Of a DNA stretch of 64,000 nucleotides, positions 14,425 to 33,762 are shown piece by piece. Under the pieces are notes generated by a model, which saw only the letters and a program-made list of their open reading frames with translations, searched no databases and was not told the origin of the DNA. Positions within the stretch are counted from its first letter, which is position 1, and each line of letters opens with the position of its first letter. The stretch spans positions 1-64,000 of the forward strand of contig CP166131.1 of NCBI GenBank assembly GCA_041228345.1, written 5' to 3'. The position numbers and the translations under genes are program-made. This DNA is from Alphaproteobacteria bacterium LSUCC0396. Lineage in GTDB: Bacteria > Pseudomonadota > Alphaproteobacteria > Puniceispirillales > Puniceispirillaceae.

Positions 14425-14431
14425 GGCTCAC

Positions 14432-17215
14432 ATGCTCGATTCAACGCCGCAAAAAACTGTAACCATTAAACTGGATGGCAAGGATGTTTCCGTGCCAGAA
14501 GGCGCCACCATCTGGGAAGCGGCACAAGCTCAGGGTACTTTGATTCCGCACCTGTGTCACAAGCCAGAGCCCGGATATCGCTCCGACGGCAATTGCCGTG
14601 CTTGCATGGTTGAGATTGAGGGAGAGCGCGTCTTGGCGGCATCTTGTATCCGGCCTGTGCAGGATGGCATGGTCGTGCATACAGCGAGTGAGCGTGCCGA
14701 GAAATCGCGGGCGCTGGTGGTAGAGCTATTGGCCGCTGATCAGCCTGAGCAGCCGCATGACGCATCGTCGCATTTTCTTGATATGGCGGCATTAAATGGG
14801 GTGTCGGAAAGCCGATTTCCGGCGCGTGATGCTTGCCATGTGCCGCTGCTAGATGACAGTCACGTCGCAATGAGTGTCAATCTTGATGCTTGTATCCATT
14901 GTAACTTGTGCGTTCGGGCTTGCCGTGAAGTGCAGGTGAATGATGTTATTGGCATGGCGGGTCGCGGTCTTAATGCCGAGATCGTATTTGATATGAATGA
15001 TCCAATGGGGCAATCGACCTGTGTGGCGTGCGGTGAGTGCGTTCAGGCCTGTCCAACCGGGGCGCTGATGCCAGCCAGCGTTCTTGATGACGCGCAGCAT
15101 GGTGACAGCAAGGATTATGACCGCGAGGTTCAGTCGGTGTGCCCATATTGCGGCGTTGGTTGTCAATTATCCTTCAAGATCAAGGATGATGAAATCAAAT
15201 ATGTCGAAGGGATAAATGGCCCGGCTAACGAAAACCGGCTATGCGTGAAGGGGCGGTTTGGTTTTGACTATGTGCATCACGATCACCGCTTGACCAAACC
15301 ATTGATCCGGCGTGAAGATGCGCCAGTAAAAGGGCTGAATGTCGATCCGTCAAACCCTTGGACGCATTTCCGTGAAGCCAGTTGGGACGAGGCGTTAGAT
15401 ATCGCTGCCAAGGGGTTTATCCGGCATCGTGATATTTCGGGCAAGCGCATTGCTGGTTTTGGCTCGGCCAAATGCTCGAACGAAGAGGCATATCTTTTCC
15501 AAAAGATGATCCGGCAAGGATTTGGCCATAATAACGTCGATCATTGTACCCGTCTTTGCCATGCGTCGTCGGTCGCGGCTTTATTGGAAAATGTTGGCTC
15601 GGCAGCGGTGACTGCTACCTTTAATGAAATCGAAAATGCCGATGTTGCAATTGTGATCGGTGCGAATCCAACCGAGAACCATCCGGTTGCCGCAACCTAT
15701 TTCAAACAATTTGCCAAGCGTGGCGGCAAGCTGATCGTTATGGATCCGCGCGGACAAGGGCTAAAGCGTCATGCAACGCATATGCTGCAATTCCGCCCGG
15801 GCGCAGATGTGTCGATGCTGAACGCGATTATGAATGTGATCGTCGAAGAAGGCCTTTATGACCAGCAATATATCGACAGCTTTACCGAAAACTGGGATGA
15901 AATGAAGGCGCATCTAAAGGCGTTTTCACCCGAAAAAATGGCTGAATTCTGCGGTATTGATGCCAAGACTTTGCGTGCTGTCGCGCGTGATTTTGCAGGT
16001 GCCAAATCAGCGATGATTTTCTGGGGAATGGGGGTCTCACAGCATATTCATGGCACTGATAACTCGCGGTGCCTGATCTCGCTGGCGCTGATGTGCGGGC
16101 AGGTTGGGCGTCCTGGAACAGGCTTGCATCCATTGCGTGGTCAGAACAATGTTCAAGGGGCGTCAGACGCGGGGTTAATCCCGATGTTCCTGCCAGATTA
16201 TCAGAGTGTGACCGATGATGGCGTGCGCTCGGCCTTTAATGAAATCTGGAATTCGGAGATGATCGCGCCGGAAAAGGGCCTGACCGTTACTGAAATCATG
16301 GATGCAATTCATGATGGTGACATCACCTCGATGTATGTTCTGGGTGAAAATCCAGCAATGTCTGATCCTGACGCCGATCATGCGCGCGCCGCATTGGCCA
16401 AGCTGGATCATTTGGTTGTGCAGGATATCTTCCTGACCGAGACGGCGAATTATGCCGATGTCATCTTGCCAGCTTCGGCGTGGGCTGAAAAAACTGGCAC
16501 GGTTACCAATACCAACCGTCAAGTACAGATGGGGCGTCCAGCAATTGCACCGCCGGGTGATGCACGTGAAGATTGGTGGATTATCGTTGAATTGGCCAAA
16601 CGGATTGGTCTTGACTGGAATTACGCGCATCCGCGTGAGGTGTTTGCCGAAATGAAACTGTCAATGAAGTCGCTTGACAACATCACGTGGGATCGTCTGG
16701 CGGCAGAAAATGTAGTTACCTATCCATCGCTTGATGAGACTGATCCGGGGCAGCCGATTGTCTTTGGTGACGGGTTCCCGCGGCATGAGGGGCGGGCACG
16801 CTTTACCCCGGCCAGCATTATTCCGCCTGCGGAAACGCCAGATACAGACTATCCGATGATCCTGACAACGGGGCGTCAGCTTGAACATTGGCATACCGGT
16901 TCGATGACCCGCCGCGCCACTGTTCTTGATGCTGTCGAGCCGCAAGCAAATGCGTCATTGAATCCGCGCACCTTGCGTAAACTCGGTGTTGAGGCAGGGG
17001 ATATGGTTACGATTGAAACGCGGCGTGGGGCGATTTCAATCATGGCACGGGCTGACCGTGCGGTTGCCGAGGATATGGTTTTTGTGCCGTTCGCCTATGT
17101 TGAGGCAGCAGCCAATATCCTCACAAATCCGGTGGTTGATCCCTTTGGGAAAATCCCTGAATTCAAATTTGCTGCGTGTCGGGTTTTAGCGTCTGTTAGC
17201 GTAGCGGCTGAGTAA
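14432..17215 (+). CDS. NAD-dependent formate dehydrogenase, catalytic alpha subunit (FdsA/FdhF type)
   Basis: A 927-aa Mo/W-bisMGD formate dehydrogenase that oxidises formate to CO2. The N-terminal NuoG-like part binds [2Fe-2S] through C42, C55, C58 and C72. CxxCxxC sets for two [4Fe-4S] clusters follow (HCNLCVRAC and CVACGECVQAC). The catalytic core begins with CPYCGVGC at 237-244 ([4Fe-4S]). The metal ligand is Cys376 followed by His377 in TRLCHAS, so this is the cysteine form, not the selenocysteine form. HIHGTDNSR and GLHPLRGQNNVQGASD are standard cofactor-binding blocks. There is no Tat signal, so the enzyme is cytoplasmic. It forms a two-gene operon with the beta subunit and ends at a strong terminator. 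No fdhD or small FdsD-like gene is adjacent; those must be elsewhere. Confidence 0.94.
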   Translation: MLDSTPQKTVTIKLDGKDVSVPEGATIWEAAQAQGTLIPHLCHKPEPGYRSDGNCRACMVEIEGERVLAASCIRPVQDGMVVHTASERAEKSRALVVELLAADQPEQPHDASSHFLDMAALNGVSESRFPARDACHVPLLDDSHVAMSVNLDACIHCNLCVRACREVQVNDVIGMAGRGLNAEIVFDMNDPMGQSTCVACGECVQACPTGALMPASVLDDAQHGDSKDYDREVQSVCPYCGVGCQLSFKIKDDEIKYVEGINGPANENRLCVKGRFGFDYVHHDHRLTKPLIRREDAPVKGLNVDPSNPWTHFREASWDEALDIAAKGFIRHRDISGKRIAGFGSAKCSNEEAYLFQKMIRQGFGHNNVDHCTRLCHASSVAALLENVGSAAVTATFNEIENADVAIVIGANPTENHPVAATYFKQFAKRGGKLIVMDPRGQGLKRHATHMLQFRPGADVSMLNAIMNVIVEEGLYDQQYIDSFTENWDEMKAHLKAFSPEKMAEFCGIDAKTLRAVARDFAGAKSAMIFWGMGVSQHIHGTDNSRCLISLALMCGQVGRPGTGLHPLRGQNNVQGASDAGLIPMFLPDYQSVTDDGVRSAFNEIWNSEMIAPEKGLTVTEIMDAIHDGDITSMYVLGENPAMSDPDADHARAALAKLDHLVVQDIFLTETANYADVILPASAWAEKTGTVTNTNRQVQMGRPAIAPPGDAREDWWIIVELAKRIGLDWNYAHPREVFAEMKLSMKSLDNITWDRLAAENVVTYPSLDETDPGQPIVFGDGFPRHEGRARFTPASIIPPAETPDTDYPMILTTGRQLEHWHTGSMTRRATVLDAVEPQANASLNPRTLRKLGVEAGDMVTIETRRGAISIMARADRAVAEDMVFVPFAYVEAAANILTNPVVDPFGKIPEFKFAACRVLASVSVAAE

Positions 17216-18751: not shown

Positions 18752-19654
18752 TTAGCCTTTTAAAACATCTACCAAGGTGACGCCAAGTTTGGCTGGCGAA
18801 GGCGAGACGCGAACACCGGCTGCCTCTAAGGCGGCAATCTTTTCATCAGCGCCGCCTTTACCGCCAGAAATAACCGCGCCAGCATGGCCCATGGTGCGGC
18901 CAGGCGGTGAGGTACGGCCAGCAATAAAGCCAACCATCGGCTTTGAGCGGCCTTTTTTGGCTTCGTCAATCAGGAATTGCGCCGCATCTTCCTCGGCTGA
19001 ACCGCCAATCTCACCAATCATGATGATTGATTCGGTCTGCGCATCAGCAAGGAACATCTCTAGCACATCGATGAATTCCGTGCCCTTGACCGGATCGCCG
19101 CCAATACCAACGGCAGATGACTGGCCGAGGCCCGCCATTGATGTTTGGTAAACCGCCTCATAGGTCAGCGTTCCCGACCGGGATAGCACGCCAACCGAGC
19201 CTTTGCGAAAAATGCTTGGTGGCATGATCCCGATTTTGCATTCATCCGGTGTCATCAGGCCGGGACAATTGGGGCCAATCAAACGTGAATTTGATTTATC
19301 CAGCTTTTCCTTTACCCGCACCATGTCCATAACCGGAACACCCTCTGTGATACAGGTTATCAGCTCAATGCCTGCATCAATCGCTTCTTCTATTGCTGCG
19401 GCGGCGCCTGCTGGCGGAACATAGATTACCGAGGCGTTAGCGCCAGTGGCGTCTTTGGCTTCGGCAACCGTGGCATATAGCGGCAGGTTTTGTCCCGCAG
19501 CGCTAGTCCATTCTTGGCCGCCTTTTTTCGGGTGAGTGCCGGCAACCATTTGGGTTCCATGATAGGCGAGTGCCTGTTCAGTATGAAATGTGCCGGTTTT
19601 ACCAGTCAGGCCCTGCACAATGATTTTGGTGTCTTTGTTAATGAGAATCGACAT
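18752..19654 (-). CDS. sucD: Succinate-CoA ligase, alpha subunit
   Basis: A 300-aa CoA-binding subunit of succinyl-CoA synthetase. It interconverts succinyl-CoA + NDP + Pi with succinate + CoA + NTP. The N-terminal CoA domain shows [17 protein letters not shown]. The phosphohistidine loop is in the [21 protein letters not shown] segment near residue 245. GPNCPG and [11 protein letters not shown] are standard. It starts four bases after sucC, so the pair is an operon. The pair is not next to sucAB or mdh, which is the usual alphaproteobacterial arrangement. Instead it is divergent from the oxalate regulator gene. A malate-CoA ligase (MtkB) cannot be ruled out by eye, because the two families are very close. 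Confidence 0.93.
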
Positions 19655-19658
19655 GTGC

Positions 19659-20852
19659 TTAGCCTTTCACTGCTTTTACAATTTTCTGCGCGGCGTCATC
19701 CAGATCATCAGCGGCAATCACATTCAGTCCGCTGCTATTGATGATCGCTTTTCCTTCGTCAACCTTGGTGCCTTCGAGACGTACCACCAATGGCACCTCA
19801 AGATTGATGTCCTTCGCCGCCTGAACGACGCCGTCAGCAATCACGTCACAGCGCATGATGCCGCCAAAAATATTCACCAGAATACCTTTCACATTGGGAT
19901 CGGCGGTGATGATCTTAAAGGCTGCGGTAACGCGTTCGGTCGTTGCGCTGCCGCCAACATCAAGAAAGTTTGCTGGCTCAGCTCCATAAAGCTTGATGAT
20001 GTCCATAGTTGCCATCGCAAGCCCTGCACCGTTCACCATGCAGCCAATTTCGCCGTCCAGCGCAATGTAGGCGAGGTCATATTTTGATGCCTCAACTTCC
20101 TTTTCGTCTTCTTCGGTTTCGTCCCGCAATTCTAAAATATCGGGATGCCGAAACAGCGCATTATTGTCAAAAGACACTTTTGCGTCGAGCACCTGAACAT
20201 CGTTTGACTTGGTAACAATCAACGGGTTGATTTCCAGGAGGCTCATATCCTTGCTGCTAAAAGCCTCATAGAGGTTTTTGAAAAGTGCAATGCCCTGATC
20301 TCGGGCTGATCCGGTGAGCTTTAGCGCGTCAGCAATCCTGGCTGCATCAGCATCAGTGCACCCGGTGCTGGCAGTGATGCCAACTGAATGGATTAATTCA
20401 GGCGTGTCATGCGCGACCGTCTCAATATCCATGCCGCCTTCGGTTGATGCGACAAAAGATGTTTTGCAAGTCTCGCGATCAACGAGGATCGAAAGATACA
20501 GTTCGCGATCAATTTCGGCGCCAGCTTCGACATATAGCTGATTTACAGCCTTGCCATTGGGACCGGTTTGCTTGGTCACAAGGGTTTTTCCAAACATTTC
20601 CCGCGCATTTTCCAGCGCCTCTTCGGCTGAAAAAGATACGCGAACGCCGCCTTTGGCGTCAGGGCCAAGCTCTTTGAACTTGCCTTTACCGCGTCCACCG
20701 GCGTGGATCTGGCTCTTTACCACCCAGACAGGGCCGGGCAGCGATGCAATCGCGCTTTCGGCATCGTCAAGATTGGTAATCGCAACACCGGCGGCAATGG
20801 GCGCGCCAAATGTCTGTAAAATTTTCTTGGCCTGATGTTCATGGATGTTCAT
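19659..20852 (-). CDS. sucC: Succinate-CoA ligase, beta subunit
   Basis: A 397-aa ATP-grasp subunit, normal for SucC. It begins with the family signature [12 protein letters not shown], which fixes the start at 20852; a longer in-frame reading to 21032 has no conserved sequence and runs into regulatory [37 protein letters not shown] and [13 protein letters not shown] are the nucleotide- and subunit-interface blocks. It is transcribed away from the GntR gene. The 357-base gap between them carries two TGGTATACCA-like palindromes, so sucCD may share regulation with the oxalate operon. Its role there could be to supply succinyl-CoA as the first CoA donor for oxalate, or simply the TCA cycle. Confidence 0.93.
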
Positions 20853-21209: not shown

Positions 21210-21944
21210 GTGGCAATCGATGTCAAACTAAAGCCTGTTTCGATCAATTTTACCCTGAAAGACCATATATATGAGGTGCTGCGCGAGAGCATCTTGAAGG
21301 TCGATATCTATGATGCTGATGAAGAGTTACGATTGGATGAGCGCCGGCTTGCCGAGCAGCTTGGCATCTCGCGTACACCGATTCGCGAAGCGTTAGCGCG
21401 ATTGGCGCAGGATGGTTTAGTCGAGATTTTGCCACGCAAAGGCGTGTTTATTCACCGTAAAAGCCTTAATGAGATTCTTGACATGGTTGTGACGTGGGCG
21501 GCGCTGGAAAGCATGGCGGCGCACATCGCGGCGCGTGTTGCCTCAGATGCCGAGATTAAGGCGCTTCGTGACCTAGCAATGCGCCACAGCACCTCAGCAA
21601 GCAAGGCTGAGCTAAGTGAGTATTCCGACGCAAATATCAAATTCCATCAGGCAATTTTTGACATGTCCGGCAGCCCCTTGTTGAAATCAACAACTGATGG
21701 GCTTTTTGCACATATGTTTGCGGTTCGTCGGCGGGCAATGGGCGAGAATAACCGTGCTACCAATTCGGTTGCTGACCATATGGAAATTATCGAAGCGCTT
21801 GAGTCCCGCGACAGTGAATTGGCGTCGCGTTTGGTGCGTGAGCACACGATGCGGTTGCATGATCATATTCGGGAGAGATGGACGCGGCTGGCCAACAAAA
21901 CAAAGGTGGGCTCCAGCCCCGAAAAATCTGACACAGAAACATAA
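21210..21944 (+). CDS. GntR-family transcriptional regulator with FCD (FadR-type) ligand domain
   Basis: A 244-aa regulator. The N-terminal winged helix-turn-helix is typical of GntR proteins: LRLDERRLAEQLGISRTPIREALARLAQDGLVEILPRKG (about residues 46-85). The C-terminal FCD helical domain contains the metal/ligand histidines (IKFHQAIFDMSG, DHMEIIEALESRD, REHTMRLHDHIRERW). FCD proteins respond to small carboxylates or acyl-CoA compounds. The GTG start follows a strong GAGGGGGGG sequence. It is 137 bases before the oxalyl-CoA decarboxylase gene, in the same direction. It has palindromic candidate operators in its own promoter, so it is the likely local regulator of oxalate/formyl-CoA catabolism. 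The effector (oxalate, oxalyl-CoA or formyl-CoA) is not known. Confidence 0.9.
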   Translation: MAIDVKLKPVSINFTLKDHIYEVLRESILKVDIYDADEELRLDERRLAEQLGISRTPIREALARLAQDGLVEILPRKGVFIHRKSLNEILDMVVTWAALESMAAHIAARVASDAEIKALRDLAMRHSTSASKAELSEYSDANIKFHQAIFDMSGSPLLKSTTDGLFAHMFAVRRRAMGENNRATNSVADHMEIIEALESRDSELASRLVREHTMRLHDHIRERWTRLANKTKVGSSPEKSDTET

Positions 21945-22081: not shown

Positions 22082-23794
22082 ATGACTTCATCCGAGACAC
22101 AGGCGCTAACAGACGGTTTTCACCTCGTTATCGACGCGCTCAAGCTCAATGATATCAACACAATTTACGGCGTTCCGGGCATCCCGATCACCGATCTTGG
22201 GCGGATTGCGCAGGCCGAAGGTATGCGCGTAATTTCATTCCGCCATGAGCAGCATGCAGGTAACGCTGCATCAATTGCCGGTTATCTGACAAAAAAGCCG
22301 GGCATTTGCCTGACTGTTTCGGCGCCGGGCTTCTTGAACGGTCTGACCGCATTGGCAAATGCAACAACTAACTGTTTCCCAATGATCCTGATCAGTGGCT
22401 CGTCCGAGCGTGAAATCGTTGATTTGCAGCAGGGTGACTATGAAGAAATGGATCAGCTGGCGATCGCCAAGCCACTATGTAAAGCCGCGTTCCGGGTGCT
22501 TCATGCCGAAGATATTGGCATTGCCGTTGCCCGCGCCATTCGTGCCGCCGTTTCGGGTCGTCCAGGCGGTGTTTACCTTGATCTTCCAGCAAAATTATTT
22601 GCCCAAGTCATGGACGCGGAAGCAGGCCAAAAGTCGCTTGTTAAGGTTATCGATCCGGCACCGCGGCAACTGCCAGCCCCTGATGCGGTTGCACGGGCAC
22701 TTGATGTTCTAAAAAGCGCAAAGCGCCCATTGATTATTCTGGGCAAGGGCGCTGCCTATGCTCAAGACGATGAGATTGTAAAAAGCTTTGTCGAGAAAAG
22801 CGGCGTGCCGTACCTGCCAATGAGCATGGCCAAGGGCCTTTTGCCGGATGATCACCCGCAATCTGCCGGTGCAGCGCGTTCGCTGGTGCTAAAAGAGGCA
22901 GATGTTGTGGTGATGGTTGGGGCGCGTTTGAACTGGCTCTTGTCACACGGTAAAGGCAAGAGCTGGGGTGAGCCAGGTTCAAAGCGCTTTATCCAAGTTG
23001 ATATCGAACCGCGTGAAATGGACAGCAATGTCGAGATTACAGCACCTGTTGTTGGTGACATTGGATCATGCTTGAGTGCAATGACACAAGGCATGGGCGA
23101 TAATTGGCCTGCCGTTCCGGCCGATTGGACAGCGACGATCCAGCAGCGCAAAGATATCAACCTTGAAAAAATGGGCGCCAAGTTGAAAAGCAACACCGTG
23201 CCAATGGATTTCCATAGCGCGCTAGGTGCGCTGCGTACGATCGTGAAAGAACGCCCAGACGCGATTCTGGTGAACGAGGGCGCCAACACGCTCGATTTTG
23301 CCCGCAGCATCATTGATATCTATAAGCCGCGCAAACGTCTTGACGTGGGAACATGGGGTATCATGGGCATCGGTATGGGCGCTGCCGTTGCGGCGGCGGT
23401 TGAGACGGGTCAGCGGGTCTTGGCTGTCGAGGGTGATAGCGCCTTTGGTTTCTCTGGAATGGAAATCGAGACTATCTGTCGCTACAACCTGCCGGTTTGT
23501 GTGGTCGTGTTTAATAATAACGGTATTTACCGTGGCACTGACACAAATCCGACTGGCGGCGAAGATGTGGCGCCAACGGTATTCGTTAAGGATGCGCGGT
23601 ATGATCAGATGATGGCAGCCTTTGGTGGGGTTGGCGTTTACGCCACGACGCCTGACGAGCTTACCCGCGCGGTAAATGAGGCGATGGATAGCGGCAAACC
23701 AACCTTGGTTAACGCTGTCATTGATGAAAATGCCGGCACTGAAAGTGGCCGTATTGGCAATCTCAACCCACAAAGTGTGGTGTCTAAGAAATAG
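22082..23794 (+). CDS. oxc: Oxalyl-CoA decarboxylase
   Basis: A 570-aa thiamine-diphosphate enzyme that converts oxalyl-CoA to formyl-CoA and CO2. Length and sequence match the Oxalobacter-type enzyme. Glu56 in [11 protein letters not shown] is the TPP-activating glutamate. The stretch [15 protein letters not shown] near residue 30 is an Oxc hallmark. The C-terminal TPP/Mg motif is [19 protein letters not shown] ... NNNGIYRG. The ATG is preceded by ACAGGAGAC. It is the first catabolic gene after the GntR regulator and is followed 42 bases later by frc. The pairing with frc removes most doubt versus acetolactate synthase or benzoylformate decarboxylase homologues. The product formyl-CoA feeds the next three genes. 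Confidence 0.95.
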
Positions 23795-23836
23795 CGCCAC
23801 GGCCTAGTCACTCAGGTTTAGAAATAGGATAAGACG

Positions 23837-25096
23837 ATGAAAGCTCTTGAAGGTATTAAAGTTCTGGATTTCACCCATGTTCAATCAGGTCCAACCTGTA
23901 CCCAGCTTCTGGCTTGGTTTGGCGCTGATGTGATCAAGGTCGAGCGTCCGGGGGTTGGGGATGCAACACGCCAGCAATTGGTCGATGTTGAAGGTGCCGA
24001 TAGCCTTTATTTCACCATGCTGAACCACAATAAACGGTCAATTGAGCTGAATTCCAAAAATGAAACCGGAAAGCAGATCTTAACCCGTCTTATCGAAACC
24101 TGTGATGTGCTGGTTGAAAATTTTGCGCCCGGCGCGCTGGATCGCATGGGCTTTACATGGGAGCGGATTCAAGAAATCAACCCGCGCCTCATTATGGCTT
24201 CGATCAAAGGATTTGGCCCGGGCAAATACCAAGATTGCAAAGTCTATGAGAACGTCGCCCAATGTGCTGGTGGTTCTGCGTCAACAACCGGTTTTCGTGA
24301 TGGCCCGCCATTGGTAACCGGCGCGCAAATCGGTGATTCTGGAACCGGCCTGCACCTTTGCCTAGGGATTGTCACTGCGCTATTCCACCGGGAAAAATCT
24401 GGTCGAGGCCAGAAGGTAACGGCAGCGATGCAAGACTCGGTGCTGAACCTTGCGCGGGTCAAGCTTCGCGATCAGCAGCGCCTTGCCGCTGGCCCTTTGA
24501 AGGAATATTCGCAATTTGGTGAGGGGATTCCGTTTGGCGATGCGACACCGCGTGCGGGTAATGATTCGGGCGGCGGTCAGCCGGGCCGCATATTGCGGTG
24601 CAAGGGCTGGGAACAGGATCCCAACGCATATACCTATTTCATCATTCAGGCTGCGGTTTGGGAAAAGGTCTGCGATATCATTGGTGAGCCTGAGTGGAAA
24701 ACCAAAGAAGGGTATGCCAAGCCGCCACAGCGCCTTGATAAACTGAATGAAATCTTTGAACGTATCGAGCAGTGGACAATGACCAAAACAAAGTTTGAGG
24801 TCATGGATGCTTGTAACCCGCTGGATATTCCGGTTGGCCCGATCCTGTCGATGAAAGAAATTTCTGAAGATGAAGGTCTTTACGCAACTGGCACATTGGT
24901 CAAGGTCGACCATCCAGAGCGCGGCGAATATATTTCGGTCGGATGTCCGATTAAATTGTCTGACAGCCCAGCTGATGTGAAACGTTCACCGTTGCTTGGC
25001 GAGCATACAACCGAGATTTTGACTGATGTTCTTGGCTATTCAGCTGATGAACTCGCCCAGATTATTGAATCGGGTGCTGTGGGCAATGTGAAGTAA
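23837..25096 (+). CDS. frc: Formyl-CoA:oxalate CoA-transferase
   Basis: A 419-aa family III CoA-transferase that moves CoA from formyl-CoA (or succinyl-CoA in some relatives) to oxalate. The catalytic aspartate is Asp167 in [10 protein letters not shown]. The block [19 protein letters not shown] and the flexible glycine loop in [11 protein letters not shown] are characteristic of Frc and not of CaiB or mesaconate enzymes. The family start [14 protein letters not shown] is intact. It lies 42 bases after oxc and its product, oxalyl-CoA, is the Oxc substrate, so the two close the formyl-CoA cycle. It releases formate, which the NAD-formate dehydrogenase or Fhs can use. Confidence 0.95.
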
Positions 25097-25172
25097 AGTA
25101 ATATTCCATAAGCTATTAATTTGAATGGCTTATGTTTTAAAAATTTAGCTTGGTAGGTTGGGAGAGCAAGCG

Positions 25173-26087
25173 ATGAGAATTGTATTACATGGACAGCAGG
25201 CATTTGGTCAGGCTGTGTTGGAACGACTATTGGAGCGCGGAGAAGACGTTGTTGCTGTCTGTTGCGCACCGACAAAAGAGGGCAAGCCTGAAGACCCGCT
25301 AGTTGAACTGGCACGCGAAAAAGGATTGCCAGTTCATCAGCCAGCATCGTGGAAAACCCCCGAAGCACTTGAATTGATGAAATCATTTAACGCCGACGTC
25401 TGCATGATGGCCTATGTGCTGTTATTTGTGCCGCAAGAAGTGCGCGATGCGCCTAAATACGGCACATTCCAGTATCACCCGTCACTTTGCCCAGAACATC
25501 GCGGCCCTTCATCAATCAACTGGCCGATCGCAATGGGTAAAACCCGCACCGGCCTGTCGATTTTCTGGCCAGATGATGGTTTGGATGAAGGCCCGATGAT
25601 GCTGCAGAAAACCTGCGAAATCGGCCCTGATGAAACGCTTGGGGATGTTTATTTCAAAAAGTTGTTCCCAATGGGCGTCGATGCAATGATCGAGGGGCTA
25701 GAGCTGGTGAAGGCTGGCGTTATTATCAAGCATGATCAGCGCCTCGAAGATGGGTCTTATGAAAGCTGGTTTGGCAAGGCGGCGGCCGAGATCGATTGGT
25801 CAAGGCCGGTTGCTGACGTCTATAATATTATCCGCGCTGCCAACCCTGCACCGGGGGCTTGGACGACCTTTAATGGCAGCGAGTTAAAGATTTATGATAG
25901 TGCGCGCGTTGATGGCACTGGAGCTGCTGGCGAAGTGGTTTCGGTCGATGAAAACGGCGTTACGGTTCAAGGAAATGGCGGACGTATCCTGATCAAAAGG
26001 GTGCGGCCTGCTGATGGTGGAAAAATGGCGGCAAGCGAATGGGCTTCTGCTGCTGGGATTAACTCTGGAACAAAGTTAGGATCATAG
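25173..26087 (+). CDS. Stand-alone formyltransferase homologous to the 10-formyl-THF hydrolase domain of ALDH1L
   Basis: A 304-aa protein. The N-terminal formyltransferase domain (about 1-200) resembles the hydrolase domain of 10-formyltetrahydrofolate dehydrogenase (ALDH1L1). Shared features are [35 protein letters not shown] and [17 protein letters not shown]. The catalytic pair is H102 and D138; the position of the methionyl-tRNA formyltransferase asparagine holds Q100. The C-terminal Fmt-like beta domain (about 205-285) is present, but the carrier and aldehyde-dehydrogenase parts of ALDH1L are missing. I start at 25173, six bases after GGAGAG. It lies between frc and fhs, two bases before the latter. 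It could hydrolyse 10-formyl-THF to formate, or move a formyl group between formyl-CoA and THF. Housekeeping Met-tRNA formyltransferase is unlikely, since there is no adjacent def gene. Confidence 0.82.
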
Positions 26088-26089
26088 TT

Positions 26090-27766
26090 GTGAGCTTCAA
26101 AACAGACATCGAAATCGCGCGTGAAGCCAAGAAAATTGCTATTCAGGATGTGGGGGCAAAACTAGGTATTCCTAGTGCTGACCTGCTTCCATTTGGACAT
26201 GATAAGGCAAAAGTTTCTGAGAGTTTTATTAAGAGCCTTGCCAAAAACAAAGATGGCCGCTTGATCTTGGTTACCGCTATCAACCCAACTCCAGCCGGTG
26301 AGGGTAAAACCACAACAACTGTCGGCCTTGGCGATGGTTTGAATAAAATTGGCAAAAAAACCGCTGTATGTATCCGCGAGGCCTCGCTTGGCCCGTGTTT
26401 TGGTATGAAGGGCGGCGCCGCTGGTGGTGGCTATGCCCAAGTCGTTCCAATGGAAGATATGAACCTGCATTTTACTGGTGACTTCCACGCGATTACGTCG
26501 GCTCATAACCTTCTGGCTGCGATGCTTGATAACCATATTTATTGGGGTAACGAGCTGGATATTGATATTCGCCGCGTTGCATTCCGCCGCGTGTTGGATA
26601 TGAATGATCGGGCGCTTCGTGAAATCGTCTGTAACCTTGGTGGCGTTGCCAACGGCTTTCCGCGTGAAGCCGGTTTTGACATCACTGTTGCATCTGAAGT
26701 GATGGCAATCTTGTGTTTGGCGACTGACCTTGCCGATCTCGAGCGTCGTCTTGGTGATATCATAGTTGCCTATCGCCGCGATCGTTCACCTGTATTTTGC
26801 CGTGATATCAAGGCTGATGGTGCGATGACAGTGTTGTTGCAGCAGGCAATGCAGCCAAATCTTGTACAAACATTAGAAAACAACCCTGCATTCGTGCATG
26901 GAGGCCCATTTGCCAATATTGCGCATGGCTGTAATTCAGTTGTTGCAACAACGACAGCGTTAAAGCTGGCTGACTATGTTGTCACCGAAGCTGGATTTGG
27001 CGCCGATCTCGGTGCTGAAAAATTCCTCAACATTAAATGCCGTAAAGCTGGCCTTCGTCCAGATGCGGTTGTCATTGTGGCCACAGTCCGGGCGATGAAG
27101 ATGAACGGTGGTGTTGCCAAAGCCGATCTTGGCCAAGAGAATGTCGAGGCCGTGAAAAAGGGTTGCCCAAATCTTGGCCGTCATATCGAAAATATCCAGC
27201 AATTCGGTGTTCCGGCAATCGTTGCGATCAACCATTTTGTCACTGACACTGATGCCGAGGTTCAAGCGCTTAAAGATTTTGTTGCTGCACAAGGCACCGA
27301 GGCTGTTCTGGCAACACATTGGGCAAATGGTAGTGAGGGCACTGTTGATCTTGCGAATAAAGTTGTCGCTTTGATCGATGGAAACCCATCACAATATGCG
27401 CCGCTATACCCGGCTGAAATGCCGTTGTTCGAAAAGATTGAGACAATTGCCAAAAAAATCTACCGTGCTGATGAGGTGCTGGCTGATTCGAAGATCCGTG
27501 ACCAGCTGAAACAGTGGGAGGCTCAAGGCTATGGTGACCTGCCGGTGTGTATGGCAAAGACCCAATATAGCTTTACCACCGACCCTAATCGTCGGGGGGC
27601 GCCAACCGGTCACAGCCTGCCAATTCGTGAGGTTCGTTTGTCGGCCGGAGCTGGATTTGTTGTGGTAATTTGTGGTGATGTTATGACCATGCCAGGCCTG
27701 CCGCGGGTGCCGTCAGCCGAGACAATTCGGATTAATGAGAATGGTTTGATTGATGGGCTGTTTTAG
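26090..27766 (+). CDS. fhs: Formate-tetrahydrofolate ligase
   Basis: A 558-aa ligase that makes 10-formyl-THF from formate, THF and ATP. The nucleotide loop [19 protein letters not shown] is near residue 66-84. The blocks [40 protein letters not shown] and the C-terminal [16 protein letters not shown] are diagnostic. The start is GTG and lies two bases after the formyltransferase gene, so the two are translated together. In this operon it captures formate released by Frc, linking oxalate to purine, serine and glycine synthesis. It may also run in reverse to make ATP from 10-formyl-THF. Confidence 0.96.
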
Positions 27767-27835: not shown

Positions 27836-28693
27836 ATGATACGCAAGATTCTTGTGCCAGTTCGGGGCGACGGTAAGGGCGACAATGTTCTTGCGCACGC
27901 GGCTGCGTTGGCGCGAGGTTTTAATGCGCACATTAAAATCACCCATTGCCGCGCCAAGCCGGAAAATCTATTGCCTTTCGGGGTGCCGATTCCGGCGGCG
28001 CTTCGGGCTCAGCTTGCCGAGAGTACCAGTCAGGTGTTCGATATTGAGGAGGCGGGACTTCGTGATGAAGTTCTCGCGCTGAGTAAAACCTTGAACATCC
28101 GCTTGTCAGATGCAGCAGACGGAAAATCGGTAACGGCAAGTTTTGTTGAAGAAGCCGGACGTCAAATTGACGTGATCGGACATCACGGGCGGCTTGCTGA
28201 TATTATTGCTGTGGCGCAGCCTGATATTGACCGTAACCTTGGCGCTAATACACTAAAGGCTGCACTGTTTAATACTGGGCGGCCCGTGTTGATGTGTCCT
28301 GAGGCAAAAAAGCCCATTCCTGAAATTCTTGGTAAAAATATAACGATTGCCTGGGATGGGTCGCGTGAGGCATCGCGAGCAGTGACAAGCTGTCTGCAAT
28401 TACTTGTTGCGGCAAAATCAGTGTCAGTTCTGACCGTTAAGTCAAAACCGGTCAGTGTGAAGCCTGACGAATTGCAAGATTACTTATCTGCGCATGGCAT
28501 TGCGGCTGATGTCGTTGAAATCGAAACCAAGTTACAAACGGCACAGGCGCTTTTGGATAAGTCAGTGGCACTTGGCGCCGATCTTATGGTGCTTGGCGCT
28601 TACAGTAAACATCATGATTTAGAGAGGTTTTGGGGTGGCACTACCCAATATATCGTGGATCACGCAACGATCCCGGTGATTATGACGAATTAG
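27836..28693 (+). CDS. Universal stress protein with two Usp domains
   Basis: A 285-aa protein made of two tandem Usp folds: residues ~1-145 (starting RKILVPVRGDGKGDNVLAHAAALA) and ~160-285 (starting NITIAWDGSREASRAV). The second ends with the nucleotide-binding region LGAYSKHHDLERFWGGTTQYI and VIMTN. UspA proteins bind ATP or AMP and respond to stress or energy state; a direct role in oxalate metabolism is not known. It lies between fhs (69 bases) and the Tct transporter (109 bases), on the same strand. It is probably part of the operon. GGGGGAG precedes the ATG. Confidence 0.85.
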   Translation: MIRKILVPVRGDGKGDNVLAHAAALARGFNAHIKITHCRAKPENLLPFGVPIPAALRAQLAESTSQVFDIEEAGLRDEVLALSKTLNIRLSDAADGKSVTASFVEEAGRQIDVIGHHGRLADIIAVAQPDIDRNLGANTLKAALFNTGRPVLMCPEAKKPIPEILGKNITIAWDGSREASRAVTSCLQLLVAAKSVSVLTVKSKPVSVKPDELQDYLSAHGIAADVVEIETKLQTAQALLDKSVALGADLMVLGAYSKHHDLERFWGGTTQYIVDHATIPVIMTN

Positions 28694-28802
28694 GTGTCGG
28701 CTCAGCAAATGTTGGGTAAAAATCATTAAAAGCCATCGGGTTAGAAGAATGGCGTGGGGTATGAAGATGTTCTTCATACAAAAGAAACCAAAGGAGGAGA
28801 CT

Positions 28803-29804
28803 ATGAAGTCTATCAAAAAACTTTTTATTGGAGCAGTTGGAATGGTCTTGGCGGCAACGTCAATTTCAGGTGCAGCTGTTGCCGGTGGCCATGGCTGGGA
28901 GCCAACCAAGCCAATTGATTTTATTATTATGGCTGGTAAAGGCGGTGGTGCCGATAAGATGGCGCGCTTGATGCAGGCGATTGTTGAAAAGGAAAACTTG
29001 GCAAACCGTCCACTTGTTCCAACCAACAAGTCTGGTGGTTCGGGTGCAGAGGCGCTTATTGCCGCCTCAAAAGCCAGCGATCCAGACCATACGATTATGG
29101 TTACCTTGAACTCTTTCTACACAACACCACTGCGTCAGCCTGGCCTAAAAATTGACAGCATGAGCTTTGCTCCTGTTGCCCGTATGGCTGAAGACACATT
29201 TTTGTTGTGGGTTCACAAAGACAGTGGCCTCAAAACATTCCAGGAATTCCTGACAAAGGCAAAAGCCGACGGTAACAAATGGGTTATGGGCGGCACCGGT
29301 AAAAACTCTGAGGACAACATCATTACTGACTTCCTGAATGACAATTACGGTCTTTCAATGAAGTACATCCCTTACAAGGGCGGCGGAGCTGTTGCAAAGC
29401 AGGTTGCCGGTAAGCAGCTGAACTCATCAGTGAACAACCCATCAGAGGCGCTTGGTTTCTATGAGTCAGGCGATATGGTGCCACTGGTTGCCTTTACAAA
29501 TAGCCGTCTTCCAATGTTCCCTAATGTCCCAACATTGGGTGAAATTTTTGCCGGTGGTAAGCAGCAGAAATGGTCATACTTTATGCAGCGTTCTGTTGTA
29601 GGTGCACCTGGTATGTCTGAGAAGGCCCAGGCTTATTATACTGATTTGTTTACAAAGGTTTACAACTCAGCTGACTGGCAGGCTTACAAGAAAAAACAGT
29701 CTTTAATGGGTGATTTCATGGCAGGTGATGAGCTCAAGGCTTATTGGAAAGGCCAAATTGCTAACCACGAAAAAATCTTGAAAGCATCGGGCGCAATTAA
29801 ATAG
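28803..29804 (+). CDS. Tripartite tricarboxylate transporter, periplasmic binding protein TctC
   Basis: A 333-aa solute-binding protein of the Bug/TctC family. A signal peptide covers about residues 1-27 (SGAAVAG cleavage region). The mature protein begins with the family motif KPIDFIIMAGKGGGADKMAR, and PYKGGGAVAKQVAGKQL and FPNVPTLGE follow, which form the carboxylate-binding cleft. I start at 28803, ten bases after AGGAGGAG; the longer in-frame reading has no signal. It is first of a TctC-TctB-TctA set directly downstream of the oxalate genes. This makes oxalate or a related small carboxylate its likely ligand, an inference from position only. Confidence 0.93.
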   Translation: MKSIKKLFIGAVGMVLAATSISGAAVAGGHGWEPTKPIDFIIMAGKGGGADKMARLMQAIVEKENLANRPLVPTNKSGGSGAEALIAASKASDPDHTIMVTLNSFYTTPLRQPGLKIDSMSFAPVARMAEDTFLLWVHKDSGLKTFQEFLTKAKADGNKWVMGGTGKNSEDNIITDFLNDNYGLSMKYIPYKGGGAVAKQVAGKQLNSSVNNPSEALGFYESGDMVPLVAFTNSRLPMFPNVPTLGEIFAGGKQQKWSYFMQRSVVGAPGMSEKAQAYYTDLFTKVYNSADWQAYKKKQSLMGDFMAGDELKAYWKGQIANHEKILKASGAIK

Positions 29805-29842: not shown

Positions 29843-30373
29843 ATGCGTAGAGCAGAAATAATAACAGCATTTATCTTGGGAATCCTCTCAATATACTTCA
29901 TGTGGAAGTCGGGGGAAGCACCAGAGTGGAACCCTGACATTGCCAGATTTGATAATATCTGGATGATCGAAGGCGAGGGGCCTGGTAGCGGGTTTTGGCC
30001 TTTCTGGTTGTCCGCAATAATGCTGATCTGTTGTATCTGGATTGGTGTTAACTGGTATCGTAGAACATCCTCTCCATCGCAGTCTGAAGAAGAGTTTCTG
30101 GATGGATATGGTCGGCGCATGCTTTTGGTCGTCGGCGGTGGATTGCTTGGCTTTCTGATCATGATTGAGATTGCTGGCTTTTACGGTGCAATTATGTTGT
30201 TCATGATTTACTACGTGCGCTTTTTGGGGCGTCACACATGGTGGGCGACATTGTCTATTGCTACGGGTTTGGTCGTCACCAGCTTTTTCTTTTTCGACAT
30301 CGCAATGCGCATCGTGCTTCCAAAAGGTTATTTGGAACCGCTGTTCATTCCTTTGTACGATATTTTTCTATAG
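29843..30373 (+). CDS. Tripartite tricarboxylate transporter, small membrane subunit TctB
   Basis: A 176-aa inner-membrane protein with four predicted transmembrane helices (about residues 5-25, 48-72, 92-122 and 132-155), as in TctB. The segment GPGSGFWPFWLSAIM in the first loop is common to the family. It is 38 bases after tctC and 30 before tctA. The function of TctB in transport is poorly understood; it is needed alongside TctA in studied systems. AGGAG precedes the ATG. Confidence 0.88.
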   Translation: MRRAEIITAFILGILSIYFMWKSGEAPEWNPDIARFDNIWMIEGEGPGSGFWPFWLSAIMLICCIWIGVNWYRRTSSPSQSEEEFLDGYGRRMLLVVGGGLLGFLIMIEIAGFYGAIMLFMIYYVRFLGRHTWWATLSIATGLVVTSFFFFDIAMRIVLPKGYLEPLFIPLYDIFL

Positions 30374-30403: not shown

Positions 30404-31924
30404 ATGGAAATTATAGCATCGCTAATGCAGGGTATTTTGATTGCGCTTGAGCCGATCAATCTTGGTCTTGCCATCATTGGTGTGATTGTTGGCTTGTTCG
30501 TTGGGGCAATGCCCGGCTTGGGTTCGGTGAACGGTGTTGCAATCTTGCTGCCATTTACCTTTGTTATTCAGAGTTTTACTGGTGGTGCAACGTCACCAAT
30601 GATCTTTCTTGCGTCGATTTACTATGGGGCAATGTATGGCGGTGCGATCTCGTCGATCACGCTGGGCATTCCTGGGGCGTCGACCGCGGTTGCCACAACC
30701 TTTGATGGGCGCCCGCTGGCTTTGGCCGGCAAGGCCCATGTCGCACTGGTTGCCGCTGCTCTCGCCTCGTTTGCAGGCGGCACGATCTCAAATGTCATGT
30801 TCACCGCCTTTGCACCTTTGCTGGCGACTGTGGCGTTGTCATTTGGTGATCCGGAAGTCTTTGCACTGATGCTGTTGGCCTTTGCGACCTTCGTCGGTCT
30901 TGGTGGTGATGATATTCCAAAGACGATTTTTTCAATCTGCATAGGTTTGGTGCTGGCAACAGTAGGGTTCGATGTGGTGTCTGGCGAGCCTCGCCTGGTG
31001 TTCTTTGATATCACCGGCTTTTCGCATGGCATCCGCTTCCTTGTTCTGGCGATTGGTGTTTACGGTATTGGTGAAATGCTGTGGACAATCAACACGTCAC
31101 GCTATGGCTCATCTATGACTAATGTAGACGTTACCGCGCGTGCGATCATTGATGCGATCAAGGAGTTCCGTTATGCTTGGCGTGGAACAGTCATTGGTTC
31201 TTTTCTTGGGTTTTTTGTCGGTATTTTGCCGGCGGCAGGTGCTACTCCTGGATCATTGATGGCCTATGGTGTGGCAAAGTTAACCTCAAGCGATCCAAAA
31301 TCATACGGCAAGGGTGCAGTGGATGGTGTTGCAGCGCCCGAGGCCGCAAATAACTCGGCGTCGACAGGGGCAATGTTGCCAATGATGACACTTGGTATTC
31401 CAGGCTCGCCGACAACGGCGGTTTTGCTTGCAGGTATGGTTATCTGGGGTCTCCAGCCCGGACCATTGCTATTCGCTAACCAGCCAGATTTCGTTTGGCC
31501 GCTGATCGGGTCTTTTTACATCTCAAACGTTGTTGCGGTGTTGATCAATCTAGCCTTTATTCCGGTGTTCTTGTGGATGCTTCGGATGCCATTTACCATT
31601 CTGGCGCCGTTGATTTTTGTGCTGTCACTTGTTGGTACATATGCGGCCTATCAGGATATGTTTGATGTTTGGCTGATGGTGCTTGTTGGTGTTGGTGCGT
31701 TCTTCTTGCGCCTGCTGGATTATCCGGTTGCACCCGCCGTGCTGGCGATTGTTCTGGGGCCGATTGCCGAACCTAAATTGCGGCAGTCGCTACTGTTCTC
31801 TGATGGTGACATCATGATCTTTTTCAACCGGCCAATCGCCGGGCCGATCACGGTAATTGCCATCGTGCTAATCCTCTTGCCATTGTTCAAATTGATCCGT
31901 GACAAGATGAGGCAAACCGCATAA
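30404..31924 (+). CDS. Tripartite tricarboxylate transporter, large membrane subunit TctA
   Basis: A 506-aa, about 12-helix permease that uses the ion gradient to import carboxylates delivered by TctC. Two related glycine-proline motifs, typical of the family, are visible: AMPGLGSVNGVAILLPFTF with SITLGIPGAST near residues 40-90, and ILPAAGATPGSLMAYG with TLGIPGSPTTAVLLAGM near 275-355. Its position ends the operon, and a terminator follows nine bases after the stop. Substrate: see tctC. Confidence 0.93.
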   Translation: MEIIASLMQGILIALEPINLGLAIIGVIVGLFVGAMPGLGSVNGVAILLPFTFVIQSFTGGATSPMIFLASIYYGAMYGGAISSITLGIPGASTAVATTFDGRPLALAGKAHVALVAAALASFAGGTISNVMFTAFAPLLATVALSFGDPEVFALMLLAFATFVGLGGDDIPKTIFSICIGLVLATVGFDVVSGEPRLVFFDITGFSHGIRFLVLAIGVYGIGEMLWTINTSRYGSSMTNVDVTARAIIDAIKEFRYAWRGTVIGSFLGFFVGILPAAGATPGSLMAYGVAKLTSSDPKSYGKGAVDGVAAPEAANNSASTGAMLPMMTLGIPGSPTTAVLLAGMVIWGLQPGPLLFANQPDFVWPLIGSFYISNVVAVLINLAFIPVFLWMLRMPFTILAPLIFVLSLVGTYAAYQDMFDVWLMVLVGVGAFFLRLLDYPVAPAVLAIVLGPIAEPKLRQSLLFSDGDIMIFFNRPIAGPITVIAIVLILLPLFKLIRDKMRQTA

Positions 31925-31932
31925 GACCAAAA

Positions 31933-31960
31933 AGGGGCACTTTGGTGCCCCTTTGTTTTT
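31933..31960 (+). terminator. Rho-independent terminator of the oxalate-tct operon
   Basis: AGGGGCAC (31933-31940) and GTGCCCCT (31945-31952) pair around TTTG and are followed by TTGTTTTT. It lies just after tctA, so the 592-aa gene downstream needs its own promoter or read-through. Confidence 0.88.
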
Positions 31961-31983
31961 CGGTGTTGATTGGATCACGTAAG

Positions 31984-33762
31984 ATGGATCAAAAACCAGA
32001 AATTAGGGATGATGAGCATCACGCATGGAACCCCGGTCTTACTTCCAGCCTGCCGACACGGCTATTGCCACTAATCACGTTGTTTCGGCCAGAAAATAGT
32101 GACGTCGGTTATCAGCCGGCAAAGGAGGCAGCTGATTTCTGTGGCCTTGCGGTTGAACAGCTATGTGCCCTAAAAGTCGAGCGCCTTGTTGTGCATGAGG
32201 TTTTAATAAGGGTTACTGCGGATTTGTCCGTACCTGATGGGCCGAGTTATGAATATCTCGGAATTCAGCTGCGCGGTATGGTCGACCGTATTTATCGCCA
32301 TTATATTCTTCCCGAAATGGATTGCGTCAAAGCTGATTTTGCTTTTGTGAAGCAACGCGCCAACGATAAAATTTGCCAACTTGTTGATGAGATTTATGCG
32401 TTTGAATCCGCGCCACAGCCGCCAAAGCAGCGGTTTTTGAATTTTTGGAAAAAAGCACCGAAATCGCCTGCATCAAACACCACACCGCCGGAACTTCAGG
32501 CGCTGGATAAAATGCGCCAGCAGGTAACACAGGCCGATGATTTTACGGCCGCCTGTATGGCTGCCCTAATCAGTGTTGTTGGTGGCATTTTGGGAAAACA
32601 GGGGCGAATTGTCACTGACCGGTCGTTGATTGCGCAGCTGGCGCTGAGAGTTTTTTGCAATGATCAAGGCAGTGCCGAAATTGGCCGGTTGATTGCGCCG
32701 ATTTTTGAGACAGCGGCAAGCGCCGAAGGCTATCGCTTTTTGCCAGCGCAAAGCGAGCCGATTGTGATGAATACCAAAGGTGCCTCTGCCGCGGGTAAAA
32801 GCACGATCCGGCCACAGCAACGCTTGCTGGCCGAACGGATGGGAGTGCCATGGGAGGATTTTGCCCTTATCAGCCCAGATTATTGGCGAAAATATCTGTT
32901 GGATTATGACAGTCTTGGTGCCGATTACAAATATGCGGCGATGCTAACCGGGCGTGAGCTGGAATTTGTGGACAAAAAGCTAGATCGCTATATGGCGCAA
33001 AAGGCGATAACCAAAACGGTTCCACATCTGCTGATTGACCGGTTTCGGTTTGATAGTTTCAAAATTGATAGCGAGGGTGATTATAAAAGCACGTTGCTGA
33101 GCCGGTTTGGGTCAACCGTATTTTTGTTCTTTGCGATTACACCGCCGCCCGCAACGGTTGAACGGGCGTGGCAGCGAGGGTTAACAACAGCACGCTACAA
33201 AGCTGTTGATGATTTGCTTTATCATAATATTGAGGCATTTACCGGCATCCCCGAGCTGTTTTTCTCGTGGATGTCGATTACTGACAAAAACATTTATTTC
33301 GAATTTTTGGATAATGACGTGCCTTTGGGTGATTTGCCGAAAACAATTGCCTTTGGGCGGAACGGATTAATGACGGTTCTCGATCCGGTTGCCTTGTCTA
33401 ACATTGATCGATTTAAAGAGGTTAATGTCGCGGCAACTTGCCCTGAGGACGTGCTTAACCCCGAATGGACGCCAAGTTTTCAGTTCTTGCGGCAATGTAT
33501 TGAGGCCTTGCCAAAGTTGGAATTTGCCGATCAAGCCAGCGCGTTAATCTATGGGCGTATTGAAACGAGGGATTGGGTGTATAAAAACGCCGCTGCCAAG
33601 CCGCAGAATGATGCGGCTGATCAGGGATTAAATGCGATCGGATGGGATGCCAATCCATCACCGCAACCCTTGCCGGTCGAGCGGCTTGATATTGATGCCG
33701 CAAAGCGGGTGACGCTGGGCGCATGGGGCGACATATCAGCCAACCCCGGGGTCGCCGATTGA
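31984..33762 (+). CDS. Uncharacterised P-loop protein with zeta-toxin-like kinase core
   Basis: A 592-aa protein I do not recognise as a named family. The N-terminal ~260 residues are mainly helical and featureless. Near residue 260 there is a clear Walker A motif, GASAAGKST. It is followed by RPQQRLLAERMG..WEDFALISPDYWRKYLLDYDSLGADYKYAAMLTGREL, which resembles the substrate region of zeta-toxin/AAA kinases (DPD-R and Y-A-A-L-T-E motifs). A possible lid arginine segment TPPPATVERAWQRG comes about 120 residues later. There is no signal peptide or membrane helix. I start at 31984, because the upstream reading crosses the tctA terminator. No antitoxin-like small gene is adjacent, so a toxin-antitoxin system is not evident. 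A kinase acting on a small molecule, nucleotide or protein is the best guess. Confidence 0.7.
   Translation: MDQKPEIRDDEHHAWNPGLTSSLPTRLLPLITLFRPENSDVGYQPAKEAADFCGLAVEQLCALKVERLVVHEVLIRVTADLSVPDGPSYEYLGIQLRGMVDRIYRHYILPEMDCVKADFAFVKQRANDKICQLVDEIYAFESAPQPPKQRFLNFWKKAPKSPASNTTPPELQALDKMRQQVTQADDFTAACMAALISVVGGILGKQGRIVTDRSLIAQLALRVFCNDQGSAEIGRLIAPIFETAASAEGYRFLPAQSEPIVMNTKGASAAGKSTIRPQQRLLAERMGVPWEDFALISPDYWRKYLLDYDSLGADYKYAAMLTGRELEFVDKKLDRYMAQKAITKTVPHLLIDRFRFDSFKIDSEGDYKSTLLSRFGSTVFLFFAITPPPATVERAWQRGLTTARYKAVDDLLYHNIEAFTGIPELFFSWMSITDKNIYFEFLDNDVPLGDLPKTIAFGRNGLMTVLDPVALSNIDRFKEVNVAATCPEDVLNPEWTPSFQFLRQCIEALPKLEFADQASALIYGRIETRDWVYKNAAAKPQNDAADQGLNAIGWDANPSPQPLPVERLDIDAAKRVTLGAWGDISANPGVAD

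Follow-up and report, generated by a model that had tools for sequence, protein, structure and literature searches.

Why should an operon for oxalate breakdown carry a stand-alone formyltransferase gene between frc and fhs? The question is raised by the first 64,000 nucleotides (the window) of the 2.59 Mb, single-contig genome of Alphaproteobacteria bacterium LSUCC0396 (CP166131.1), in which oxc, frc, a formyltransferase gene (its product is here called FT) and fhs follow one another on the + strand between positions 22082 and 27766. We find that FT represents a real, widespread enzyme family with a putative function and that, judging from homology and gene context, it probably passes formyl units between coenzyme A (CoA) and folate.

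All four genes named in the original prediction are present and co-directional. The oxc gene (22082–23794) encodes oxalyl-CoA decarboxylase, a thiamine diphosphate (ThDP) enzyme that scores 1003.8 bits against TIGR03254 (cut-off 739.4), is also over the cut-off of NF006721, has 7ayg as its closest PDB relative and keeps Y120, E121, Y483 and the C-terminal tail. It is followed by frc (23837–25096; TIGR03253, 698.7 bits, cut-off 504.2), for formyl-CoA:oxalate CoA-transferase, by FT (25173–26087; 304 aa from ATG, or 309 aa if TTG at 25158 is used) and by fhs (26090–27766; NF010030, 933.1 bits, cut-off 652; PF01268 over cut-off), for formate–tetrahydrofolate ligase, the genome's only Fhs match at E 1e-50. 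The stop codon of FT (26085–26087) and the GTG start of fhs at 26090 leave a gap of two bases, in agreement with the earlier reading. This gene order is far beyond chance and recurs in scores of genomes.

FT consists of PF00551 and PF02911; over its 304 aa, Pfam detects neither a carrier nor an aldehyde dehydrogenase domain, nor an enoyl-CoA-hydratase-like decarbonylase domain of the HypX type. Its best PDB relatives are the N-terminal domains of ALDH1L1 (4qpd, 8.8e-57 by sequence and 2.6e-80 in profile comparison), followed by Fmt (2.9e-39), ArnA and HypX, and its H102 and D138 align with ALDH1L1 H106 and D142, which bears out the proposed likeness to the hydrolase part of ALDH1L, with the carrier and dehydrogenase parts missing. 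Across 113 FTs (the window's and those of 112 further loci), H102, S104, D138 and Y196 are invariant, the catalytic set of ALDH1L1 being His106, Ser108 and Asp142; the two proteins also share the two-domain fold, R114 (Arg or Lys in FT), Y200 and an INW stretch. At residue 100, where ALDH1L1 has Ile104 and Fmt Asn, the FTs have Gln (94/113, Q100 in the window) or Cys (19/113), and Asn or Ile in 0/113. An AlphaFold2 model built from 48 sequences (predicted local distance difference test score 95.4) has the two-domain Fmt/ALDH1L1 fold and superposes on 4qpd with Z 34.4 (root-mean-square deviation 1.8 over 289 residues, 35% identity), on 1fmt with Z 34.8 (deviation 1.9) and on HypX, 6j1e, with Z 22.2 (265 residues aligned, 20% identity). 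Because Fmt and ALDH1L1 are tied, the fold alone is uninformative on function, and we rejected it as a discriminator. The closest named relative, among the best 80 of at least 579, is from Candidatus Puniceispirillum and is 97% identical.

Several lines of evidence tie FT to oxalate metabolism. First, the operon is widespread and re-used across many proteobacteria. In a scan of genome contigs that used the best 80 of at least 579 confirmed relatives, and so favours close ones, Frc lies within 3.5 kb of FT in 67 of the 79 loci used. If a locus is called Frc-linked when Frc, at no less than 55% identity, lies within 3.5 kb of FT, 84 of the 112 loci besides the window qualify; frc is directly upstream of FT on the same strand in 84/84, and fhs is directly downstream in 60/60 of those with Fhs at the same identity. 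Within a fixed sample of 385 Alphaproteobacteria genomes, FT adjoins frc in 18/34 cases (the window and 17 of 33 loci). In the window's own family, FT occurs in 12 and Oxc in 13 of 61 genomes, and the contig of the extra Oxc genome (G019) ends inside frc. Of 32 plasmid records with a close Frc, counted within single records and with other replicons outside the count, one also has FT: pLA6_002, on which FT is annotated as methionyl-tRNA formyltransferase.

Second, FT co-occurs with Oxc or its substitute, a relation that the original prediction had proposed to check. The 385 genomes contain FT in 34, Oxc in 20 and, in 15, another ThDP enzyme, here called TPPX, that stands in the place of Oxc; the searches for the two ThDP enzymes scored at most three candidates per genome, which makes absences soft. 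FT is present in 28 of the 35 genomes with Oxc or TPPX (16/20 and 12/15, respectively) and in 6 of the 350 without (P = 2.7e-30 by Fisher's test, which ignores relatedness). At the family level, with an assumed 172 families, FT is found in 18, and 17 of these include a genome with Oxc or TPPX. In 10 of the 28 genomes the FT gene lies away from frc, so the tie to Oxc and TPPX is more than operon inheritance. Frc itself is found in 28/34 FT genomes over the family cut-off and in 33/34 at E 1e-120; Fhs is found in 31/34 FT genomes overall and, in a 190-genome subset (assumed to be G000, G005 and G061–G248), in 13/14 FT genomes compared with 71/176 others. The suspected link between FT and oxalate is thus upheld by neighbourhood and co-occurrence alike.

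Third, Oxc and TPPX replace one another beside the same partners. Among the 113 FT loci, 35 have TPPX, in 34 cases together with Frc (examples of TPPX are L048:4990–6630, L068:10255–11886, L099, L103 and L114), and 43 have Oxc. Four of five TPPX proteins have TIGR03254 among the matches listed, at 212.5–242.7 bits, far from the 739.4-bit cut-off, and 28/28 lack Tyr120, Glu121, Tyr483 and the Ser-containing tail of Oxc, with Leu, Gln and Ile at the three positions instead. Among solved structures, TPPX is nearest to that of the 2-hydroxyacyl-CoA lyase (HACL) AcHACL (7pt3), followed by other HACL and Oxc-like enzymes. The Gln at Oxc position 121 is the same as in the AcHACL chain, and the Ile falls in the column of AcHACL Glu493, which was placed by means of the mutagenesis primers in PMC8760513, the 7pt3 chain having Ala there. 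Because the E493A variant of AcHACL stays active with a 10-fold lower kcat (PMC8760513), the missing Glu does not exclude TPPX as a lyase. Oxc and TPPX occur together in 0 of the 385 genomes, which is weak evidence alone, as chance predicts 0.8. In quick tree searches (locus L162, whose match is shorter than 250 residues, was left out), the Oxc and TPPX labels swap at least seven times on well-supported branches in the FT tree and likewise in the Frc tree. Two enzymes swapping under the same Frc and FT suggest formyl-CoA as the shared compound, provided that TPPX is a lyase; TPPX, too, would then make formyl-CoA.

Two minor observations belong here. In the FT tree, the ALDH1L1 N-domain nests inside the bacterial FT family (SH-aLRT support 86) on a long branch whose placement is unsure, a hint that the domain arose in bacteria. 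In L136 (8777–9894) and L142 (8712–9847), a third ThDP arrangement is seen, in which TPP_N and TPP_C are encoded by two genes that immediately precede FT.

With moderate confidence, we propose that FT is a soluble, reversible formyl-CoA:tetrahydrofolate (THF) formyltransferase that would balance the CoA-bound and folate-bound formyl pools. Formyl-CoA would give its CoA to oxalate through Frc, and Oxc, or TPPX elsewhere, would regenerate formyl-CoA; FT would interconvert formyl-CoA plus THF and 10-formyl-THF plus CoA at an ALDH1L/HypX-type site (H102, S104, D138), the CoA thiol serving as acceptor or leaving group. CoA as the substrate, like the reversibility, direction and physiology of the reaction, is something we infer; the recurrence of the operon, the co-occurrence and the Oxc/TPPX swaps argue for formyl-CoA. 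CoA carries a 4'-phosphopantetheine arm. In ALDH1L1, it is to the thiol of such an arm that the formyl group passes (PMC8748788, PMC4388273), and the N-domain of HypX/HoxX, which is homologous to FT, was proposed by the HypX authors to transfer formyl from 10-formyl-THF to CoA (PMC6802093) and is reported to do so (PMC12134894, crediting the Lenz group, Schulz 2020). Taken together, the HypX chemistry and the pantetheine acceptor of ALDH1L1 favour a reversible formyl-CoA:THF transfer for FT. The likeness to HypX is partial: HypX has a fused decarbonylase domain, with CoA between the two, makes CO for hydrogenase and uses the triad His74/Asp80/Asp109 (PMC6802093), unlike FT.

Direct transfer of formyl from formyl-CoA to THF had been put forward earlier, with hydrolysis of 10-formyl-THF as the other option, as an activity not known from any described enzyme, one that would save the ATP spent by Fhs. 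The chemistry stands as plausible, while sequence does not decide its direction or separate it from mere hydrolysis. The lack of precedent does not hold, given the reverse transfer reported for HypX (PMC12134894): the function would be new for oxalate metabolism, not new as chemistry, and excerpts of the open-access literature searched contained no description of a formyl-CoA:THF transferase in oxalate metabolism or of this FT. There, formyl-CoA appears as an intermediate in oxalate degradation, in HACL reactions and in HypX.

The energetic argument does not follow from the book-keeping. Frc and Oxc together turn oxalate into formate and CO2 without ATP and with the CoA ester conserved, after which one ATP is consumed by Fhs. 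Judging from the reactions of Frc and Oxc, Frc would need formyl-CoA for the next oxalate; formyl drained to THF would lose the CoA ester, so that activating the next oxalate would cost one ATP and the saving would be gone. What the cell would gain from having both FT and Fhs is a route from formate and ATP to formyl-CoA. Such a route could matter at start-up: for E. coli, which has the same Oxc and Frc families and the same initial need for a CoA ester, it has been argued that the Frc cycle requires priming when formyl-CoA is scarce, with the acetyl-CoA:oxalate CoA-transferase YfdE as the suggested primer (PMC3720670). Here, the part of a second CoA-transferase may fall to FT and Fhs, which would provide formyl-CoA by way of folate. 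With formyl-CoA absent, formate and ATP would be converted by Fhs and FT to formyl-CoA, starting or topping up the Frc/Oxc cycle; with formyl-CoA plentiful, FT would supply 10-formyl-THF. The formyl thioester is the more energetic species, and equal concentrations would favour the folate side of the exchange; while formyl-CoA is still absent at start-up, the excess of CoA would drive the formation of some formyl-CoA by mass action.

More tentatively, falling a little short of the confidence we place in the exchange activity itself, we suggest a joint scheme for many proteobacteria: a single free-standing enzyme would connect the CoA and folate formyl carriers, make the Frc/Oxc cycle self-starting, pass surplus formyl-CoA to one-carbon metabolism and serve both Oxc and TPPX, the latter being a second ThDP enzyme class, not met in the literature searched, that has repeatedly replaced Oxc. 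If true, this would give oxalate, which is an abundant organic acid, a direct connection to one-carbon metabolism, would offer one explanation of how the formyl-CoA:oxalate transferase cycle is set going and would provide a component for synthetic pathways of formate and formyl-CoA. TPPX is a second target, as it stands in for Oxc with Frc and FT unchanged and has none of the Oxc active-site residues.

Several findings weigh against the exchange reading. Within the 385-genome sample, both Oxc and TPPX are missing from six FT genomes, and seven Oxc or TPPX genomes have no FT. Unlinked FT genes adjoin unrelated ones, among them genes for 2-oxoglutarate (2OG) oxygenases, coproporphyrinogen oxidase, a DEAD helicase and acyl-CoA dehydrogenase. 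Conserved basic residues (K284 in 112/113; R276 as Arg or Lys in 113/113) do no more than suggest a CoA site, and TPPX is only presumed to make formyl-CoA. Finally, PurU is found in 0/34 FT genomes and in 89/351 others (P = 1.5e-4, with relatedness ignored), as if FT stood in for it.

This last pattern leads to the main rival, that FT does nothing but hydrolyse 10-formyl-THF, standing in for PurU and freeing formate and THF when Fhs over-formylates folate during oxalate use, which we regard as unlikely although it deserves to be taken seriously. The ALDH1L1 N-domain, the closest solved relative, hydrolyses 10-formyl-THF alone (PMC4388273). PurU belongs to the same formyltransferase superfamily and acts on 10-formyl-THF, as FT presumably does; the two never co-occur in the 385 genomes, and the three PurU carriers among the 35 Oxc/TPPX genomes are all within the seven without FT. 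We found no PurU in the window's genome, and the four NCBIfam families listed for FT at E 0.001 do not include PurU. Within Fhs genomes, however, the contrast is weak (PurU in 0/13 with FT and 12/71 without, P = 0.20), and the absence of PurU from FT genomes is partly, and only partly, explained by Fhs. A hydrolase encoded two bases from Fhs would run a futile ATP cycle, where an exchange enzyme would have a use, and it would leave the tie to Oxc and TPPX unexplained. Moreover, Gln or Cys replaces the Ile104 of ALDH1L1, whose change to Asn leaves less than 10% of the hydrolase activity (Reuland 2006, cited in PMC4388273, where the passage makes no mention of Gln or Cys).

We consider it improbable that FT works one way only, making 10-formyl-THF from formyl-CoA and THF and so serving assimilation during growth on oxalate, which was the first option of the original prediction. 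One-carbon assimilation is suggested by Fhs together with the SucCD-like and phosphoenolpyruvate-carboxylase genes of some loci: among Frc-linked loci of at least 12 kb, 17 of 57 have a SucC or SucD homologue, compared with 1 of 18 unlinked ones, and pLA6_002 has both ppc and sucCD. Yet one-way transfer would deplete the Frc cycle of its CoA carrier with no overall ATP saving and would make Fhs partly redundant although both genes are kept together. In Paracoccus alcaliphilus, moreover, sucCD also adjoins an oxc–frc pair without FT and is therefore not FT-specific.

Less probable again is formylation of another acceptor important to oxalate users, such as an amino sugar, an amino acid or a protein. 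The fold is common to sugar formyltransferases, and the six FT genomes without Oxc or TPPX would fit; however, the window's operon contains no recognisable nucleotide-sugar gene, the strongest partners of FT are Frc, Oxc/TPPX and Fhs, and the catalytic Asn of Fmt, ArnA and GART (PMC4388273) is absent from 113/113 FTs. That FT is a second methionyl-tRNA formyltransferase is hardly credible and was set aside, for although Fmt has the same fold and length, TIGR00460 is FT's best NCBIfam match and one relative is annotated fmt_2, FT scores 137.1 bits, below the cut-off of 201.5, has Gln in place of the catalytic Asn and shares the genome with a separate Fmt at 251.3 bits (of six Formyl_trans_N matches in the genome, one Fmt and one PurN are over cut-offs, and three others reach no NCBIfam cut-off).

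Returning to the locus around the proposed exchange enzyme, the + strand order is GntR–oxc–frc–FT–fhs–USP–tctCBA. The GntR/FCD-family gene (21210–21944; PF00392 and PF07729) is probably the operon's regulator and has a homologue in 62 of the 84 Frc-linked loci. Downstream of fhs come a universal-stress-like protein (USP; 27836–28693, PF00582; homologue in 23/84) and a Tct-type tripartite transporter, with TctC (28749–29804, PF03401), TctB (29843–30373, PF07331) and TctA (30404–31924, PF01970; homologue in 44/84) all over cut-off, which probably takes up oxalate or another acid. After tctA, a terminator-like hairpin at 31931–31954 is a consensus match only, and a 606-aa protein (31942–33762) has no Pfam or NCBIfam match at E 0.001 and a homologue in 9/84 Frc-linked loci. 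Upstream, formate dehydrogenase subunits on the + strand (12733–17215; 14432–17215 over the TIGR01591 cut-off, 12733–14424 NuoF-like and below cut-off) are probably a formate sink, presumably linked to NAD. Farther away, 47226–50117 encodes a second formate-dehydrogenase-alpha-like protein and 60411–62723 a CO/aldehyde/xanthine-dehydrogenase-like large subunit, neither of which reaches a curated cut-off.

The divergent neighbour on the – strand, sucCD (18752–20852), is over the NF001913 and NF004230 cut-offs for succinate–CoA ligase. Similar pairs lie near the operon in L094, L116, L123, L127, L143, L154, on pLA6_002 (66928–69081) and in L203 (901–2987), and the SucC proteins fall in six groups at 55% identity. 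Because such homologues recur, SucCD was considered as an oxalate-CoA ligase and not adopted: it scores as succinate–CoA ligase, the genome has no ATP-grasp_2 match besides the window's SucC, and the presence of ppc beside sucCD on pLA6_002 and of sucCD beside an FT-less oxc–frc pair are further points against that role. The recurrent pairs are perhaps malate-CoA ligase and part of a serine cycle; a search with a 5' fragment of ppc gave no match among 114 loci.

Some FT genes stand in other settings. In two Paracoccaceae metagenome-assembled genomes (L096:10001–10912 and L102:704–1615), a GntR regulator directly precedes FT, the locus has no oxc or frc match and, in L096, Dus and MoaA-like genes lie downstream. 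An AMP-binding ligase-like gene (PF14535/PF00501) follows FT in a Binatia metagenome-assembled genome (L156:11073–12344), and genes for 2OG-Fe(II) oxygenases stand beside some unlinked FT genes (L058:782–1420 and L056:8658–9785).

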